NCBI RefSeq assembly: GCF_902809845.1
Contig: NZ_CADDWI010000008.1
Coordinates: 682,001 to 746,000, forward strand
Direction of reading: 5' to 3'
DNA: 64,000 nucleotides
From: Chelativorans sp. Marseille-P2723
Lineage (GTDB): Bacteria; Pseudomonadota; Alphaproteobacteria; Rhizobiales; Rhizobiaceae
Below the pieces are notes generated by a model. That model was given only the letters and a program-made list of their open reading frames with translations, was not told the origin of the DNA and searched no databases. Numbering within the stretch: position 1 is the stretch's first letter; every line of letters begins with the position of its first letter. Both the position numbers and the translations under genes were made by a program. This document shows, in pieces, positions 10,778-57,203 of the stretch.

Positions 10778-12085
10778 ATGACCACCAAGACCGACATTGC
10801 TAGACGGGTCTACAACCACACATGGAAACTCGACCCGATCTGCCGCAGTCTGTTGGATACGGACTTTTACAAACTCCTGATGCTGCAGATGATCTGGGGC
10901 CTTTACCCGGATGTCGATGCAACTTTTACCCTCACAAACCGGACGAAGACGGTCCGGCTTGCGGATGAGGTGGACGAGGGGGAACTACGAGAACAGCTCG
11001 ATCATGCCCGCTCCATCAGATTTACCAAGAAGGAGATGATCTGGCTTGCAGGCAACACCTTCTACGGCCGCAAGCAGATATTCCGTCCGGAGTTCCTCGC
11101 TTGGCTGGCTGATTTCCGCCTGCCTGACTACGAACTCACGCACCGCGACGGTCAGTTGGAGCTAAATTTTCATGGCCGCTGGATGGAAACCACCATGTGG
11201 GAGATTCCGGCGCTTGCCATCATCAACGAATTGCGTTCGCGCGCCGCAATGCGTTCGCTCGGCCCCTTCGCGCTCGACGTCCTCTATGCCCGGGCGAAGG
11301 CTAAGGTATGGGAGAAAGTCGAGCGGCTGAAAAAATATCCGGAGATCCGCATTTCCGATTTTGGCACGCGGCGCCGGCACTCCTTCTTGTGGCAGCGCTG
11401 GTGTGTGGAGGCACTCAAGGAAGGAGTCGGCAAATCCTTCACCGGCACCTCCAACGTGAAGCTTGCAATGGACACGGATCTGGAAGCGTTGGGTACAAAC
11501 GCCCACGAGTTGCCTATGGTCCTTGGTGCCCTGGCCGAGACGGATGAGGAGTTGCGAGCCGCGCCCTACCGTGTTCTGGAAGACTGGCAGAGCTACTATT
11601 TCGGCAATCTGCTCATAGTCCTGCCGGATACGTTCGGCACGGAAGCCTTTCTGCGGGATGCCCCCGATTGGGTCGCGGACTGGACGGGTTTCCGCCCCGA
11701 TAGCGCCCCCCCCATCCAAGGGGGAGAACGCATCATCGAATGGTGGAAAGAGCGCGGCCGCGATCCGCGTGAGAAGTTGCTGATCTTCTCCGATGCGCTC
11801 GATGTCGATACGATCGAACGTACCTATCTTCATTTCCGGGGCCGCGTACGCATGGCCTTTGGATGGGGAACCAATCTGACTAATGATTTTGCCGGCTGCG
11901 CCCCGGAGGAAATCAAGAGCCTCAAGGCAATCTCGCTCGTTTGCAAGGTGAGCAAGGCCAATGGCAGGGCCGCTGTGAAGCTCTCGGACAATCCTGAGAA
12001 GTCAACAGGAGATCCAGACGAGATCAAGCGTTACCTCAAGGTGTTCGGCGAGCGGAACATGGTTCGTCAGGCGGTAACCGTTTAG
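10778..12085 (+). CDS. pncB: Nicotinate phosphoribosyltransferase
   Basis: PncB salvages nicotinate with PRPP to nicotinate mononucleotide for NAD synthesis. The 435-residue product has the diagnostic N terminus [20 protein letters not shown], the FGTRRRHSF segment that carries the phosphorylated/phosphate-binding region, and [10 protein letters not shown]. The frame is open 81 codons further upstream, but the family length is about 430 and homology begins at [11 protein letters not shown], so ATG 10778 is chosen. An IS630 copy has inserted 12 bp after the stop without touching the coding region, though it may have displaced the native terminator. nadE elsewhere in the window acts later in the same pathway. 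Confidence 0.96.
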
Positions 12086-12099
12086 GTTTGCAACGACTA

Positions 12100-13146
12100 G
12101 AGTCTTTCATGTTTTGACGGAAGCGTATCCGGCGTTTGCGAGGTAGTTTGCGCATTCGCCGGGTTCGATGGTTGAGACGAGGTGCCCGATGTGACGCCAT
12201 GTGTCCTCGACGGTTCGTTTCTGGGCATGGCGCATCCAGTGCTTGATCTTGGCAAAGGCCTGTTCGATCGGGTTGAGGTCTGGTGAATAGGGCGGCAGGA
12301 ACCAGAGCCTGGCGCCGGCCGCCCGGATTGAAGCTCGGACGGTGGCCGACTTGTGGGAACCCAAATTGTCCATAACGACGATGTCGCCGGGTTTGAGGAC
12401 CGGCACGAGCTGCTGCTCAACATAGGCCCGGAAGCACTGTCCGTTGATTGGTCCGTCAAAGACGCAAGGTGCTGTCAGCCCATCGCAGCGCAGCGCGCCC
12501 ACGAAGGTCAGCGTGCGCCAGTGACCGTGCGGGGCAAAGCCGCGCAGGCGCTTGCCGCGTGGTCCCCAGCCGCGCAGGGGCGCCATGTTGGTCTTGATCC
12601 AGGTTTCGTCGATAAAAACCAGCCGGTGCGGGTCAAGGCTCGCCTGAAAGGAACGCCAGCGCTGACGCCTGCGCGCTATGTCGGCCCGCGCCTGCTCAAG
12701 GGCGAACAGTGTTTTTTTTGAACCGAAGCCCCTCGCGCTGCAGAAACTGCCACACGGCATTGTGCGACACCTTCACCCCGCGCGCAGCCAGTTCATCCTT
12801 GAGCCGGTGCAGCGACAAATGCGGCACCTGATTGATGCGCTCGACGATGAACGCCCGGTGCGGCTCGAGCACCCGCTTTCGGTGGCCGCCCATCTTGCCC
12901 GGCGCGACCGAGCCCGTCGCACGATAACGTTGATGCCACTTCACCACCGAAGAAACCGAGACACCGAACCGGGCGGCCGTCGACCGGCAACTCTCCCCGG
13001 CCTCGATCGCTCCAATCACGCGCTTGCGAAGATCATTGGAAAGAGGTGCTGTCATAAGATGCTGGCCTCCTCTCCAGCCAACATCTTGAATCACAAAAAG
13101 GACCCGATGGGAACCCCAACCGATTCAGACAAAGAATGAACCGCTC
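12100..13146 (-). mobile_element. Complete IS630-family insertion sequence
   Basis: A 1047-bp element bounded by TA on both sides (12098-12099 and 13147-13148), the target duplication expected for IS630. The ends are imperfect inverted repeats of about 28 bp: reading inward from each TA, both give GAG-N3-TTCAT-N2-TTTG-N-C-N-GAA. The two overlapping transposase frames lie inside on the minus strand. Both ends and both frames are present, so the copy may be active if the frameshift is used. It sits between pncB and cckA and interrupts no gene. Confidence 0.93.
12107..13055 (-). CDS. IS630-family transposase, two overlapping frames
   Basis: The upstream frame (13055 to 12696) encodes the helix-turn-helix part, starting [20 protein letters not shown]; the downstream frame (about 12712 to 12107) encodes the DDE catalytic domain with Asp in FIDETW, Asp in [10 protein letters not shown] and Glu in [13 protein letters not shown]. 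The frames join at a run of eight A residues on the coding strand (T run at 12712-12719): with seven A the protein reads continuously through F-K-K-T-L-F-A. Production of the full enzyme of about 315 residues thus needs slippage there. The two-frame layout with an A-run is known in several IS630 members; that it is functional here is inferred. Confidence 0.9.
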
Positions 13147-13252
13147 TAGGTCTGACCGGAGCGGCAAGCACATTCGGTGCCCAAACCAGAAGCAACAAAG
13201 CGCCTTGACTGCAACCACGGCCAGGGCGCACCGGGCTTAAGAGCAACCCGAC

Positions 13253-15838
13253 TTACGCCTTCTCCTCTAGCATTTCCTTGACGACAGTTGCTAACTGTTT
13301 GAGTGAAAAAGGTTTTGGTAAGAAACCAAACTTCGCATCCGATGGCAAATTCCGCGAAAATGCATCCTCTGCATAGCCAGAAACGAAGATGAATTTAACT
13401 TCGGGCTGGACCTTGCGTAGTTCCGTTAGCAGCGTCGGCCCGTCCATCTCTGGCATGACGACGTCAGAAACGACGATATCCACCTTTCCGTCCAGAGACC
13501 TGAAAATCTCCATGGCCTCGATGCCCGAACTGGCCTCGTGCACCTCATAACCTCTGGATGAAAGGGCGCGTACGCTGCCCATCCGCACGGCGTCTTCATC
13601 CTCCACCACCAGCACGCGCGCAGACCCGGAGAGGTCACGATTTACCGCAGGGGCCCTGTGCGCGCCTTCAGCCGCCCCATTCGCCGCCGCCTTCGCCTCG
13701 ATCTCCGATTCAGACGGGATATGGCGGGGCAAGAAGATGCGGAACACGGTTCCCTCACCCAGCTCCGAATCGCAAAAGATGAAGCCGCCCGTCTGTTTGA
13801 CGATGCCGTAGACCATTGAAAGGCCAAGGCCGGTTCCTTTGCCCACTTCCTTGGTCGTAAAGAAGGGTTCGAAGATCTTCTTCAGCGTCTCCTGGGGAAT
13901 GCCGGTGCCCGTATCCTCCACTTCGATCATTACATAATCGGCAGGTATTAGCTCACGATACCCGAAGCGGGTGCACTCCTCACCGGGAACGTTCGTAGTC
14001 CGCACGGCGAGGGTACCGCCGTCGGGCATGGCATCGCGTGCATTGACCGCCAGATTGACGATCACCTGCTCGAACTGCCCGATATCCGCCTTCACCGGCC
14101 AGAGATCGCGGCCATGCTCAATGGCGAGCGTGACGTCGCTTCCGACGAGGCGCGACAGGAGCATTCGGATGTCGGCAAGCACATCTGTCAGGTTCAGGAC
14201 CTCCGGACGCAATGTCTGGCGGCGGGAGAACGCCAGGAGCTGCCGCACCAGCGAGGCAGCGCGGTTCGCGTTCTGCTTGATGTTCATGATGTCTGGGAAC
14301 GATGGATCGGACGGACGGTGGTTCGTCAAAAGCAGGTCCGACGCCATTATGATGGCGGTCAGCACATTGTTGAAGTCATGGGCGATACCGCCGGCAAGCT
14401 GCCCTACCGCCTGCATCTTCTGACTCTGCGCCATCTGCGCCTCAAGTGCCTTCTGCTCCGTCGTCTCGACGGCATAGACGATTGCAGCCTCCTCCACGCC
14501 CTCCCCGGCATCGGCTACGGCGTTGACATAGAAACGCATATGGCGTTCCTCGTCATCGGGCAGCACCGTGTCAATGGGGGCGATATCCGCCTGCCGCTCC
14601 TTGGCTTTTTCCAGTGCCGCCGCAAATTGCTCCCGATCCCGCTCCTGCATCACCGTATCCAGCTTGATGCGCCGGTCCACGGCATCCCGGTCCACCACGC
14701 TGGAAAACAGCGATAGGAAAGGAGCATTGGTGCGCAGGATCCTTCCTTCATGGTCAACGCTGGCTATTGCCATGGGAGTGGAATTGAAAAAGCGGGTGAA
14801 GCGCACCTCCGATGCCCGCAGATCGGCAGAGGCGTCTTCTCCTATCCGGCGGTTGAGCACGATTGTGCGTGTAGGCCCTGTCATACCTTCACGGCTGGCC
14901 GTCACACGATGCATAAAGCGTACCGGCAACGCCTCTCCTCGCATCGTCGCAAGATCGAGGTCGATGACCGCATTGCGAACGGTTCCCTGCTCCGCCTTGA
15001 CGGCGTGAATGAGCGCCATGCCATCGCCCGCGACAATGTCTGAGAGCGTAAGCGCGCCCGGCACGAAATTGACCAGGTCCACACCCAGCCATTCGGCCAA
15101 TGTCGCGTTGATGTAGGTTATGCGGCCCTCCGAGTCGGCTGCGAAGAAGCCGGCAGGCGCATGATCGAGATGGTCAATCGCTTGTTGAAGGTCGAGGAAG
15201 AATTGCTCCTGTTCGGCCCGCTCGTCGGAGATGTCGGTCAAAAGCCAGGCAGAAAGCGGTCTTCGGTGTCCCGGCACCTTGAAGACGCGCGCGCAAGCGC
15301 GATACCAGCGCGCCCCCGGATCGGCCCCCGGCCGGATCGGCCGGGAAAGACGGAACTCTCCGTCCGCCGCCTTTCCGTCCCTCAAACTCGCGGCTAGTCG
15401 TTCAATAACGGGAGCGGCTTCCTGATTGTCGGAGAGTAGGGCTTCAACTGTGGAAACATCGGCCGCGGAAATGGCGCCTGTCAATTCGGCATAGGCCCTG
15501 TTGGCATATAGCAAGCGGCCCTTCGCGTCGGTGACCACAAGCCCCTCGCCCATGGAGTCGATGAAGGAGCGCGAAAGCTCGTCCCCCGTGGAACGCGGCG
15601 CGATCTGGATGAATCCGATCGCGCTGGCAAACAGATAGCCGACGCCGATCATGGCCAGGATGCCGAGAATGCCGAGCAGAAAGTCTTCGCCGAGCTGGTC
15701 CTGGAACAAGGCGAAGACCATGGCCGAGCCAGTAAGGACGAGAATGAAGATGATCAGCCGTGTGATGACGCCTGGCCGAGCGCCCTGATCGATGATAGCC
15801 ACCGATTCTATCTCAGCCCGGCCCTGCCTAGCCCGCAT
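13253..15838 (-). CDS. cckA: Hybrid sensor histidine kinase CckA
   Basis: CckA is the membrane kinase/phosphatase that, through ChpT, controls the cell-cycle regulator CtrA in alphaproteobacteria. The 861-residue protein has two transmembrane helices (about residues 25-75), tandem PAS-type domains (about 90-450), a HisKA region with the phospho-acceptor His in [14 protein letters not shown] (about H487), an ATPase domain with NARDAM, GTGIP and GKGTGLGLS, and a C-terminal receiver domain with Asp in [12 protein letters not shown] (about D792). The frame is open a further 67 codons, but ATG 15838 has GGAG six bases before it and matches the family N terminus. It is divergent from the FliO-like gene, as in other Hyphomicrobiales. 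Confidence 0.96.
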
Positions 15839-52939: not shown

Positions 52940-53598
52940 TCACTTTCTCCCATGCTGCCTGGCAGCCCCTCACCCGCTTTCCAGAATAATTGTCTAAGCA
53001 TGCTTATCAGGCGACCGATCCCGGTATGAGGCTCCTCCCTGGCCTGACCTTTTCGCGCACGCCAGTCTTTGGGGCGCTCGAAGGTGCCTGCCCAAAGCCC
53101 CCCGCGCTTGGAACGAGCATCCGCCTCTGCCTCATGGTAGTCACCATAAGCAATCGCCCATCCTGCTTCCACCATTGCATGGTTGAGATCAAGGCCCCCT
53201 GCACGGCAGCGGGCTAGCAGCCGGCCGTAGCGGTCGCGCTCCCGACCTTCGCAGATGAGTTCGCCGTGTCGCACCAGCTTCGCCAGCGCACGCCGGGCCT
53301 CGTTGCCGCAGGCGTAAGTCTGTCCGCCGGCAACGCATTGCTGGCCGAGTTCCGGCGCATCTATTCCTCGCAGGCGAATGCGTTCTCCGGCAAGAGTCAA
53401 GCTATCCCCGTCTCCGACCGAAAACGGCCCGGTAAGCTGCCGCACCGCAAGCTGATCGAATCTTGCGGCCAGAAGCATGAGCAGCAGGAGGATCGCGCCC
53501 GCGAGCATGATATCTGCAAGCGGTCTCCTCCGCGCTGCCTGATGGCGGCGCAACCGCAGGGTGCGGTAGCCCGAGCCGCGGAAGGGTCTTTTAATCAT
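52936..53598 (-). CDS. Membrane-anchored thermonuclease-family (SNase-like) protein
   Basis: A 220-residue protein with a basic N terminus, one transmembrane segment (about residues 29-46, ADIMLAGAILLLLMLLAA) and an SNase domain: VGDGDSLTLAGERIRLRGID with the Asp/Arg of the active site, APELGQQC, and RERDRYGRLLARC with the second catalytic Arg. Ca-dependent nuclease activity outside the cytoplasm is the family role. Four-base overlap with the GST gene; divergent from the histidine kinase with only 39 bp between starts. Confidence 0.9.
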   Translation of the reverse strand: MIKRPFRGSGYRTLRLRRHQAARRRPLADIMLAGAILLLLMLLAARFDQLAVRQLTGPFSVGDGDSLTLAGERIRLRGIDAPELGQQCVAGGQTYACGNEARRALAKLVRHGELICEGRERDRYGRLLARCRAGGLDLNHAMVEAGWAIAYGDYHEAEADARSKRGGLWAGTFERPKDWRARKGQAREEPHTGIGRLISMLRQLFWKAGEGLPGSMGESE

Positions 53599-53637
53599 TG
53601 TAAAATAGATTCATGCACAAACGCGGGTTGTACAGTG

Positions 53638-55173
53638 ATGGCGCTGAGGGAAAGTATTTCGGCGGACAAATTTATAGTGGACCGCAGAAGGCCCCGCCGC
53701 AATGGTGACGTGGCGCGCACGGTCCGCCGCACGCGCGACCGGCTGTCCGAGGCGCTGTCCGAGGCCGCTGCCGAGGCCCCGGCGTTTGACCGCGAAATGC
53801 TCAAGATCCATGCACACACGATCATCAGCGCTTCCCCCTGGGAGCTGGCCATCGTGCTTACCCTTGCGGCCGTGGGCCTTGCCTCCGGCATGTTGCGGGA
53901 TACCTTATTCTGGATTCTGCTGGCGACAGCCGGCTACGCAGCGCTCTATCTTCTTTCACGTCGCGTGAAACGTCTGGACCTTACCGAAATCAACCAGCAC
54001 GGACTCGAACGTCAATATCTGTTTCTGCATTTTCTGAGCGGTATCGGATGGGCATATCTCGCCTTCCTCGACTGCGCTGACTGCGGTTTCGGTCATGCCC
54101 CGGTTCTCATTGCCATCATCCTTCTGATGATGATCGCCTTCACTGCGCTTGTAACGTCTTCTCTAGGGGGAGCCATCACGGCCACCTTCTTCCTGCCGGT
54201 GGCTGCCTACGCATTTCTCTATACCCGGTTGCCGGTGAACGTGGAGACGATCATGGCCGGTCTTCTGGTTCTATCCCTCCCCTTCTTCACCTATGTCGCT
54301 CACCACCGCAACCGAGCCGCCATCAGCCTGCTTTCCTTTCGCAGCCAAAAGGACGGGCTCATCGCGGAACTGGAGACTGCTAAGGCTCTTTCCGACGAAG
54401 CGCGCAGGCGCGCGGAGGAAGCCAATCTGGCGAAGTCCCGCTTTCTTGCTTCCATCAGCCATGAACTGCGTACCCCGCTCAATGCGATCCTAGGCTTCTC
54501 GGAGGTCATGGCAAAGGAGGTCCTGGGCCCGATCGAGAACGACACCTACCGCGAATATGCCCGCGACGTGCACGATTCGGGACAGCACCTGCTTCAGCTC
54601 ATCAACGAGATTCTCGATCTGTCGCGCATCGAGGAGGGCCGTTACCAGCTCAACGAGGAGCCGCTTTTACTCAGCGATATCGTGCAGGAGTGTTGCCGCA
54701 TGATGGAACTGAAGATAAAGGCAAAGGAAATCCGCCTTGTCCTGCAATTCGAGCCTTCCTTGCCCCAACTGCTGGGGGATGAGCGGGCCATGCGCCAGAT
54801 CACGCTAAACCTTCTCTCAAATGCGGTGAAATTCACCCCCGCTTCGGGCGAGATCCGCGTGCGGGTGGGATGGACTGCCGGTGGTGGAGAATACATCTCC
54901 GTCAAGGATAATGGACCAGGGATCCCGGAGGATGAAATTCCCGTGGTGCTTGCCGCCTTCGGCCAAGGCACCATCGCGATCAAGAGCGCCGAACAGGGGA
55001 CGGGACTTGGCCTGCCCATCGTGCAGGGCCTTGCACGCCTTCACGAAGGTGTATTCGAGCTAAAATCCAGGCTCCGCGAGGGCACCGAAGCGATCGTCGC
55101 CTTTCCACGCAGCCGGGTGATCACGAGTTCCCCGGCACTCGGGGCGAACGACGCCGGCCGTGCCAGCGTCTAA
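53638..55173 (+). CDS. Membrane sensor histidine kinase, DivJ/PleC-like
   Basis: A 511-residue kinase. After a charged cytoplasmic N terminus come about six transmembrane helices (residues 60-235), a short coiled coil, HisKA with SISHELRTPLNAILGFSE (phospho-acceptor His275) and HATPase with NLLSNAVKFTP, DNGPGIPEDEI and GTGLGLPIVQGL. The HisKA sequence is of the DivJ/PleC/PdhS type that targets DivK in alphaproteobacteria, but the sensor is integral-membrane without a PAS, so the partner is a guess. The frame is open another 124 codons upstream; ATG 53638 is the first start free of the divergent nuclease gene. No response regulator is adjacent. Confidence 0.9.
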   Translation: MALRESISADKFIVDRRRPRRNGDVARTVRRTRDRLSEALSEAAAEAPAFDREMLKIHAHTIISASPWELAIVLTLAAVGLASGMLRDTLFWILLATAGYAALYLLSRRVKRLDLTEINQHGLERQYLFLHFLSGIGWAYLAFLDCADCGFGHAPVLIAIILLMMIAFTALVTSSLGGAITATFFLPVAAYAFLYTRLPVNVETIMAGLLVLSLPFFTYVAHHRNRAAISLLSFRSQKDGLIAELETAKALSDEARRRAEEANLAKSRFLASISHELRTPLNAILGFSEVMAKEVLGPIENDTYREYARDVHDSGQHLLQLINEILDLSRIEEGRYQLNEEPLLLSDIVQECCRMMELKIKAKEIRLVLQFEPSLPQLLGDERAMRQITLNLLSNAVKFTPASGEIRVRVGWTAGGGEYISVKDNGPGIPEDEIPVVLAAFGQGTIAIKSAEQGTGLGLPIVQGLARLHEGVFELKSRLREGTEAIVAFPRSRVITSSPALGANDAGRASV

Positions 55174-55192: not shown

Positions 55193-56152
55193 TCAGCCCT
55201 TCCTGCGGCGGACTTCGGAAAGGCCGGTGGAAACATCTCCGGCGGATTTGATAAGCCCCGCCGTAAGGGCCGCCCCAACGCCGCCCGACCCGGAAGACTT
55301 GAGATCAAGCAATGGTTCAAGACCGATCCGCGCCGCCGCCTTTCGGTGCGTATCACTCACGGCGGAAGCAAGGCAGCAATGGGTCAGCGCCTCCGGATTG
55401 AGCTTATGAAGAACCTTCGCGGCGGCGGTGGCCGCCAGCCCATCCAGCACCACAGCCACATCCTGCATGCGCGCTGCGAGGATAGCGCCAGCCAAAGCAG
55501 CAATCTCGCGCCCGCCCAGCCTGCTCATCGCTTCCAGTGGATCGCCCAGGTGGCCGGTATGGCTGGCCAGTGCTTCCTTGATGACCTCTCCGCGCTTTTC
55601 CCACTCAGCGCCATCCGTCTCCATGATAGCGCTGATGAGGGCCATGGCCGAGATGTCGGAGGCTGCATCGACGGTGCCAAGGCCGATGAGATCGGCACCG
55701 CTCGCTAAAACTTCCATGCCGAACGCCATTGTCGCAGCAGCCGCCTTTTCGTCAAGTGCAGGTCGGCGCGTGATGTCCTCCACCGGCATATCCAGGGCAA
55801 GATCGAACACATTGAGGCCAAGGCCAGCCGCCGCGCAGAGATGGCTGACCGGTGCGGCGCCCGAAGCGATTGCTTCCATGGCGGCCCGCGCTCCCGGAAC
55901 GGGATCTGTCCCGGTCAAGCGCGCCGTGAGCGCATGGGTTGCCGCGAAAAGGGCGATCCTGGGCCTAGCCACATGCGCATGCCCGGTGGCTTCAGCGAAC
56001 CACACAGCAAGTTCCCCAAGGCGACCGAGCTCCTCGTGCGATCCTGATGCGGACAGCCCTGCCCGAACCTGCCCCGCCGCAGGACCGTGCCCCCACGGAA
56101 GGCGGCTGGCAAGATCGCGGATATCATCGAATGGCTGGCCCATCGTCATCAT
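55193..56152 (-). CDS. CobT-like protein lacking conserved active-site motifs
   Basis: A 319-residue protein of the CobT (nicotinate-nucleotide:dimethylbenzimidazole phosphoribosyltransferase) fold: FDDIRDLASRLP at the start, GLNVFDLALDMPVEDITRRP, ALDEKAAAATMAFGMEVL, LGGREIAALAGAILAARMQD and VVLDGLAATAAAKVLHK all read as CobT. But the catalytic parts are changed: the usual N-H-G-V loop reads ATHALTARL; the GEMGIGNTT phosphate loop reads GTVDAASDISA; and the C-terminal GEGTGAAL with the catalytic Glu reads KSSGSGGVGAAL. The frame is intact. Met at 56152 follows GAAAGGGCG; Met 56149 or 56143 are alternatives. It is followed upstream, divergently, by DUF1289 as at normal rhizobial cobT loci. I suggest a pseudoenzyme or changed function rather than active CobT. 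Confidence 0.8.
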   Translation of the reverse strand: MMTMGQPFDDIRDLASRLPWGHGPAAGQVRAGLSASGSHEELGRLGELAVWFAEATGHAHVARPRIALFAATHALTARLTGTDPVPGARAAMEAIASGAAPVSHLCAAAGLGLNVFDLALDMPVEDITRRPALDEKAAAATMAFGMEVLASGADLIGLGTVDAASDISAMALISAIMETDGAEWEKRGEVIKEALASHTGHLGDPLEAMSRLGGREIAALAGAILAARMQDVAVVLDGLAATAAAKVLHKLNPEALTHCCLASAVSDTHRKAAARIGLEPLLDLKSSGSGGVGAALTAGLIKSAGDVSTGLSEVRRRKG

Positions 56153-56264: not shown

Positions 56265-56501
56265 ATGACAACTATCGAATCCCCCTGCATTCTCGTTTGC
56301 TCCATCGACGAAAGAACCGGCTACTGCTTCGGCTGTGGCCGCACGAGGGGCGAGATCGCCGCGTGGCTCTTAATGTCTCAGGCCGAGCGCCGGGAGGTGA
56401 TGGAAGTGCTTCCTTCGCGCCTCCAATCCGTCGAGCGCCGCCCCCGCCGCGAAACTCGCCGCGCCCGGCTTGCCCGCGAGCGCGGCGAGCAAAAGGGTTA
56501 A
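56265..56501 (+). CDS. DUF1289 family protein
   Basis: A 78-residue protein beginning MTTIESPCILVCSIDERTGY, then CFGCGRTRGEIAAW: the four-Cys DUF1289 pattern (C-x3-C, C-x2-C), probably binding a metal. The arginine-rich tail (RRPRRETRRARLARERG) may bind nucleic acid. ATG 56265 is preceded by AAGGAAGG. It lies 3 bp upstream of the aspartic protease gene, so the two are an operon; DUF1289 genes commonly sit beside cobT and this protease in Hyphomicrobiales. Function unknown. Confidence 0.9.
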   Translation: MTTIESPCILVCSIDERTGYCFGCGRTRGEIAAWLLMSQAERREVMEVLPSRLQSVERRPRRETRRARLARERGEQKG

Positions 56502-56504
56502 GCG

Positions 56505-57203
56505 ATGCGGCTTTTCTGGATCGTAATGGCTGTTCTTGCCGGCGGCCTTGGCTTGCTTGTGGCCACCCATGACCGCGGCTCCGTTTTCGGGCTCGAAAGC
56601 AGCGTTTTCGCCTCGGTCCTTTATCTCGGCCTATGGGCCGCCGTTCTCATCGTCGCCATCTTCGGCGCTCGCACCCGCTTCCGGGACATGGCCCGGGATC
56701 TGGCCTACTGGCTGCTCATCCTGCTCGTTCTGATGACCGGCTACCAGTACCGCTATGAATTGCAGGACGTGGCGAGCCGACTGACAGCAGGGCTCGTGCC
56801 CGGAAGCCCCATCACGATCTCCGGCTCCTCGCGCGCTGCAGTGATGCTGGAAAAATCCGCCAACGGTCATTTCGAGGTTTGGATGATGGTGAATGGCGCC
56901 AGGGTGCTGGCCTTGGTGGACACGGGCGCCTCCACGACGGTGCTGTCAGCGGCGGATGCTGCTCGCGCGGGCCTTGCGGTGGAAGACCTTGCGTTCGCCG
57001 TTCCGGTCATGACTGCCAATGGCCGGGCGCTCGCTGCACGGGCAAAGGTGGAGACTCTGAAAATCGGGCCAATCGAGCGGTCAGGCGTTCCGGTACTCGT
57101 CGCGCAGGAAGGACGGCTTGAACAAAGCCTGCTCGGCATGCAGTTCCTTGCAAGCCTTTCCGGGTTCGAGATACGCGGCGACCGCCTGTTTCTCACCGAC
57201 TGA
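56505..57203 (+). CDS. Membrane-bound retropepsin-like aspartic protease (TIGR02281 type)
   Basis: A 232-residue protein with three transmembrane helices in the first 80 residues and a C-terminal single-lobe aspartic protease domain with the active-site LALVDTGASTTVLS (Asp139). Only one lobe is encoded, so it must dimerise to be active. The domain would face the periplasm or cytoplasm depending on topology; three helices with a basic loop after helix 2 suggest periplasm. Clan AA, TIGR02281 family, no known substrate. Operon with DUF1289; converges on the TauE gene. Confidence 0.9.
   Translation: MRLFWIVMAVLAGGLGLLVATHDRGSVFGLESSVFASVLYLGLWAAVLIVAIFGARTRFRDMARDLAYWLLILLVLMTGYQYRYELQDVASRLTAGLVPGSPITISGSSRAAVMLEKSANGHFEVWMMVNGARVLALVDTGASTTVLSAADAARAGLAVEDLAFAVPVMTANGRALAARAKVETLKIGPIERSGVPVLVAQEGRLEQSLLGMQFLASLSGFEIRGDRLFLTD

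Follow-up and report, generated by a model that had tools for sequence, protein, structure and literature searches.

The closest described relative of the protein analysed here is CobT, the NaMN:DMB phosphoribosyltransferase of vitamin B12 synthesis (PF02277, EC 2.4.2.21). E317 of Salmonella CobT is described as the general base and E174 as contacting the ribose 2'-hydroxyl, and the CobT of M. jannaschii as carrying a valine at the 317 position and using Asp 52 instead (PMC9561151). The CobT fold is also found in ArsA and ArsB of Sporomusa ovata, which are encoded by tandem cobT-homologous genes and work jointly as ArsAB (PMC6461909). In rhizobial naming, "CobT" can also denote a cobaltochelatase subunit, as in PMC7717549.

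The window, a stretch of 64,000 nucleotides from Chelativorans sp. Marseille-P2723, encodes a protein that is like CobT in predicted fold, locus and ancestry. Unlike the enzyme, however, it lacks the active-site residues, is kept without CobS and scores under the NCBIfam cut-offs for CobT. ArsA and ArsB are among its best structural and sequence matches, but in contrast to the tandem ArsAB genes its gene is single and is the only CobT-family gene found in the genome. Among the matches listed, we recognised no description of a degenerate CobT of these bacteria in the titles and abstract openings of the open-licence literature.

Locus, predicted fold and active site

The gene and its immediate neighbours are arranged as follows:

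53266..55173 (+): histidine kinase (HisKA, HATPase_c), convergent neighbour, true start uncertain; from family scan and synteny
55193..56152 (-): degenerate protein of CobT fold, 319 aa; positional orthologue of rhizobial cobT
56265..56501 (+): DUF1289 protein, divergent neighbour; from family scan
56505..57203 (+): TIGR02281 clan AA aspartic protease; from family scan

The open frame spans 319 codons, and its start, MMTMGQPFDDIR, agrees with the N-terminus of relatives in the alignment. The encoded protein matches PF02277 with 147.5 bits against a cut-off of 22.6 and misses both NCBIfam CobT models, with 151.9 against 306 bits for one and 128.6 against 319.3 bits for the other (TIGR03160). 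Its predicted structure is a confident CobT fold; the alignment that fed the model contained canonical rows, from which the model confidence may gain. A preliminary description of this DNA had reported an uninterrupted frame, well-kept CobT scaffold segments and the position of the cobT orthologue, and had proposed a structure prediction and a search for a canonical cobT and cobS elsewhere. The frame was borne out and the segments are present as quoted. The search returned neither gene, with a single PF02277 match and no match to CobS (PF02654) in the organism's own genome (3.77 Mb, 99.8% complete, 13 contigs). The orthologous position was likewise upheld, since most of the native canonical cobT loci that were read have the same histidine kinase, DUF1289 and aspartic protease genes as flanking genes.

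The shared surroundings extend further, with genes for the histidine kinase, DUF1289, the TIGR02281 protease, Dus, GST, SNase and UDG common, wholly or partly, to most native canonical and degenerate loci. At native canonical loci (e.g., G032) a divergently oriented cobS separates cobT from DUF1289; at degenerate loci no cobS was found between the cobT-like gene and DUF1289. A functional link to the neighbouring histidine kinase was considered and rejected, since this gene also adjoins cobT at native canonical loci and was not found in the stretches surrounding cobT in six Bartonella loci without CobS (L082, L083, L084, L086, L109, and L125). The synteny is therefore ancestral and uninformative on function.

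Residue equivalence was established by alignment to the canonical rhizobial CobT L023, and the following segments of the 319-residue protein depart from the canonical sequence in that alignment:

55916..55945 (-): residues 70-79, AATHALTARL; AGNHGVT in native canonical CobT
55649..55678 (-): residues 159-168, GTVDAASDIS; GEMGIGNTT (E174 equivalent) in canonical CobT
55589..55603 (-): residues 184-188, WEKRG, then a gap in place of the GTG phosphate loop and the lysine after it
55265..55300 (-): residues 285-296, KSSGSGGVGAAL; RLGEGTGAAL (E317 equivalent) in canonical CobT

The column of the general base E317 is occupied by a glycine. The preliminary description had pointed to three rewritten loops and had taken them as the loss of only the catalytic residues. 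The three loop sequences (AATHALTARL, GTVDAASDIS and KSSGSGGVGAAL) read as it gave them, and no GEMGIGNT-like loop appeared in the alignment. Its account of the N-H-G-V loop held in part: the Asn of this motif is not universal, being replaced by Ser in 12/12 rows of tandem canonical copies, and the His is retained. The losses go beyond three loops, because a deletion removes most of the segment with the GTG phosphate loop and the lysine after it, which we take to be K213 in Salmonella numbering, and LTKPxGSLGR has lost its K-P. The restriction to catalytic residues was also too strong, as the genus retains 41 of the 98 positions that are invariant in both canonical sets.

None of the 15 genus rows in the alignment retains the E174 or K213 equivalent, and only one carries Glu at the E317 column. 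In degenerate rows of other genera the loss is less complete, with the lysine present in 2/10 and a Glu at the E317 column in 3/10. Because M. jannaschii CobT has a valine at the 317 position, loss of E317 by itself would be no proof of inactivity; it is all the losses taken together that make the case.

Distribution, phylogeny and association with CobS

Our sample comprised 60 relatives in addition to the organism's own genome, and 56 of these 61 genomes contained a PF02277 match. Proteins with neither GEMG nor GEIG were classed as degenerate, which applied to 23 of the 67 aligned sequences. All but one of these motif-lacking rows (22/23) grouped together with an ultrafast bootstrap of 100 and SH-aLRT of 99, and the clade, which has long branches, persisted at 100/95 once the active-site columns were removed; on these trees the degenerate copies of the 22-row clade have one origin. 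All 22 copies are open frames of 310-334 aa that share 35 invariant columns. No premature stop, which the preliminary description had named as a mark of decay, was found among them, and the one stop flag (L033) is that gene's own terminal stop by coordinates. The sole motif-lacking row outside the clade is L067, which comes from a genome of 2.0 Mb and represents a separate instance. L113 and L121 likewise are altered CobT-like genes that do not group with the main clade; the genomes of L113, L121 and L067 gave no CobS match, and as a set these are likely independent cases. A second CobT-like gene of Bradyrhizobium sp. CSA207 (L145:4974-6011) falls inside the Phyllobacteriaceae clade, with the tested flanking genes absent nearby, and its transfer is possible.

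Of the 15 other genomes sampled from the genus (Chelativorans-like), 14 have the degenerate copy, seven of them alone and seven together with a canonical copy. The remaining genome, G013, has a canonical copy only, and the gene most similar to the neighbouring kinase there reaches 39% identity; the native locus thus seems to have been lost in G013 and would not be indispensable. In the genus, the canonical copy is found at another place in the genome and adjoins cobS in 8/8 genomes that have one. These copies form, with those of G022, G023, G030 and G033 from four other genera, a tandem canonical clade of 12 rows (95/86), outside which the canonical copy of G025 falls. Among the two-copy genomes reached through named loci, cobS adjoins the canonical cobT in 18/19, whereas in G448 the two are ~20 kb apart. 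On a reading of the ORFs only, the canonical copy of G001 is surrounded by what resembles a cob gene cluster. We infer that the second, canonical cobT-cobS copy was gained by horizontal transfer.

CobS is absent from 8/8 genus genomes that carry the degenerate copy only, the organism's own included, and present in 7/7 with both copies as well as in G013. The same division was seen in 26 genomes reached through named loci, where CobS was absent from 7/7 with a single PF02277 gene and present in 19/19 with two; three of these genomes (G429, G450, and G451) repeat genus genomes, and the single copies of G439, G442 and G449 lie outside the main clade. In a chosen set of 54 genomes with a PF02277 match, which were picked from the best family matches listed for a weak family score or a small genome, do not include all such genomes and contain G439 again, 45 had no CobS match. 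The presence of the degenerate CobT is independent of CobS, which would use the product of CobT. A Pfam CobT match is no guarantee of the B12 lower-ligand step, as the protein described here far exceeds the PF02277 cut-off although its genome gave no CobS match. Among the matches listed, six of the eight named Bartonella genomes also have a CobT-like gene and no match to CobS; these are the six loci named above, and they retain the E174, Lys and E317 equivalents. At least one glycine of the phosphate loop is lost in five of the six, and L125 keeps both, like the two Bartonella with CobS.

A milder form of the protein, with GDLGVxNST or a near variant, was identified in Mesorhizobium, Aminobacter and one Pseudaminobacter among the matches listed, and L033, within the 22-row clade, is likewise milder. 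We know of no name for the form encoded at the native locus of Mesorhizobium and Aminobacter. Its survey (INTERMEDIATES) covered the best 80 loci of one profile scan of genome contigs and does not represent a prevalence. In a tree built by a quick method from 88 chosen rows, the milder form fell in the same clade as the degenerate copies (SH-aLRT 100, 45 rows among the matches listed). It resembles them further in locus and in having no adjoining cobS, and it is accompanied by a second canonical cobT and CobS elsewhere, as are the degenerate copies of two-copy genomes. Unlike them, it keeps much of the site: among the matches listed, the lysine is retained in 19/19 milder rows and the E317 equivalent in 17/19, whereas the E174 equivalent is an Asp in 19/19.

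Selection and possible roles

The preliminary description had proposed dN/dS among close relatives as a check. Within the genus, dN/dS (NG86) of the degenerate copy is well below 1, at 0.150-0.206 in 9/9 pairs, some of which have high dS and some of which share genomes. Neutrality was rejected for each of the four pairs that were tested, with p from 3e-8 to 2e-24 (two of them share a row), and these ratios argue against neutral decay. Values for the neighbouring genes range over 0.035-0.381, with the histidine kinase left out and one UDG value undefined. The ratio is 0.056-0.155 for the tandem canonical copy (4 pairs), 0.005-0.035 for native canonical cobT (3 pairs), 0.065-0.109 for the Mesorhizobium-type form (6 pairs, among the matches listed) and 0.080 for a degenerate Nitratireductor pair at a saturated dS of 2.6. 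As the degenerate copy lies above native canonical cobT and its branches are long, its constraint has evidently been relaxed; judged from these ratios, it is weaker than on the enzyme, yet real.

The invariant positions of 25 native canonical rows were split by their presence in the 12 tandem canonical rows, with seven rows (L005, L006, L067, L113, L121, L145, and L146) outside all classes of this comparison. Against the 41/98 shared (universal) invariants that it retains, the genus keeps 25/36 of the rhizobial-specific ones (Fisher p 0.006), and all 25 degenerate rows together retain 33/98 and 23/36, respectively (p 0.003). The milder form is unbiased, with 72/98 and 27/36 (p 1.0). Since invariant positions are not independent of each other, these p values serve only as a guide. 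Conserved elements of the degenerate rows include, among others, the N-terminal PFDDxRxL, C106, TxAFGME and H258-C259. Positions kept in rhizobial but not in tandem CobT number 26, and the rhizobial-specific positions that are kept could be fold or dimer positions.

Locus, tree and alignment show that the degenerate protein is the native rhizobial CobT without its aligned active-site residues, with its predicted fold kept and under purifying selection. Its retention under selection among these soil and water bacteria, even where the rest of the B12 step is gone, suggests that it probably has another job. From these sequence comparisons we consider it probable that the protein, while of CobT fold, serves a non-catalytic purpose that does not depend on B12 assembly and may be an old second function. 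Selection for another role (scaffold, ligand sensor or different phosphoribosyl chemistry) instead of simple decay, as the preliminary description had proposed, gains support from the dN/dS values, the intact frames, the confident fold prediction and the lack of canonical cobT and CobS matches in the genome. In the course of events that we envisage, native cobT would have parted from the adjoining cobS and given up catalysis, a duty that would have passed to the second cobT-cobS pair or vanished with the loss of B12 assembly. The degenerate protein would then have stopped making alpha-ribazole phosphate and may bind a partner or ligand through its surface or a remodelled pocket. The non-catalytic role might already have been present in rhizobial CobT and later have become its only one. 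We put forward more tentatively, as a possibility that is open to some doubt, that rhizobial CobT has an old second non-catalytic function, separate from B12 assembly and exposed once catalysis had gone; this would apply to the Chelativorans-Nitratireductor line and other Phyllobacteriaceae, and perhaps to Bartonella with its CobT-like genes kept without CobS.

Alternatively, the CobT fold could have been rebuilt to act on another substrate, starting from a Mesorhizobium-like form of changed specificity. The retained lysine, E317 equivalent and Asp of that form and its low dN/dS would agree with such an origin, as would the use of a different base residue by M. jannaschii CobT. However, what has become newly fixed in the degenerate rows (residues L105, L195, A262, and L278) includes no new candidate catalytic residue, and the loops differ in sequence and length between species. 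This favours a non-catalytic role over new chemistry, which we regard as unlikely. Slow decay of a redundant, drifting gene would account for a dN/dS above that of native canonical cobT, the long branches and the apparent loss of the locus in G013, but it is difficult to reconcile with the rejection of neutrality in all pairs tested and with 22/22 clade copies that are open, similar in length and alike in 35 columns; we judge it improbable.

A further reading, in which the protein is the inactive half of a heterodimer with canonical CobT in the manner of ArsAB, draws on the presence of ArsA and ArsB among the closest solved structures and on the joint working of those tandem homologues. It is rejected for the organism's own genome, which has no second PF02277 match. 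Seven other sampled genus genomes also have no canonical copy, and where the genus has both copies they are never adjacent, so that this arrangement seems very improbable in general. The CobT fold itself, and the replaced E317 base of an archaeal CobT, might be taken to indicate a working CobT with an unusual site, but the protein also lacks the phosphate loop and the equivalents of E174 and K213, and there is no CobS match in the genome to use the product; we give this reading almost no weight. For the favoured non-catalytic role, the value of the locus lies in the series that it presents, which begins with an enzyme that looks active, passes through the E-to-D form and ends with a fold that lacks the active site and is still under selection. 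This series makes a hidden second function of CobT open to a gene-deletion test in a free-living strain without cobS.

Cobalamin-related and other genes of the genome

The organism's own genome contains three cobalamin riboswitches (L172, L173, and L174), located before nrdAB, metE and a gene for a BtuB-like TonB receptor. The receptor gene is followed by genes for a periplasmic binding protein, a BtuC-like permease and an ABC ATPase. The BtuB-like receptor and the BtuC-like permease score under the NCBIfam cut-offs for BtuB and BtuC, and BluB is also under its cut-off (49.7 against 150 bits). From these matches the genome may be read as that of a B12 importer with B12-independent backups. With the MetH model, three separate stretches match and none reaches the cut-off (G000:C8:1090399-1091085, 650929-651804, and 566521-567291); they look like split methionine synthase genes or parts of related methyltransferases. 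In the same genus, G013, with its canonical cobT-cobS and no native-locus copy, has six cobalamin riboswitches. On contig C9 of the organism's own genome (L172:8843-10658 and 11142-13724), a CRISPR array lies beside Cas1 and Cas7-family genes and consists of at least 27 repeats with a spacing of 65-67.
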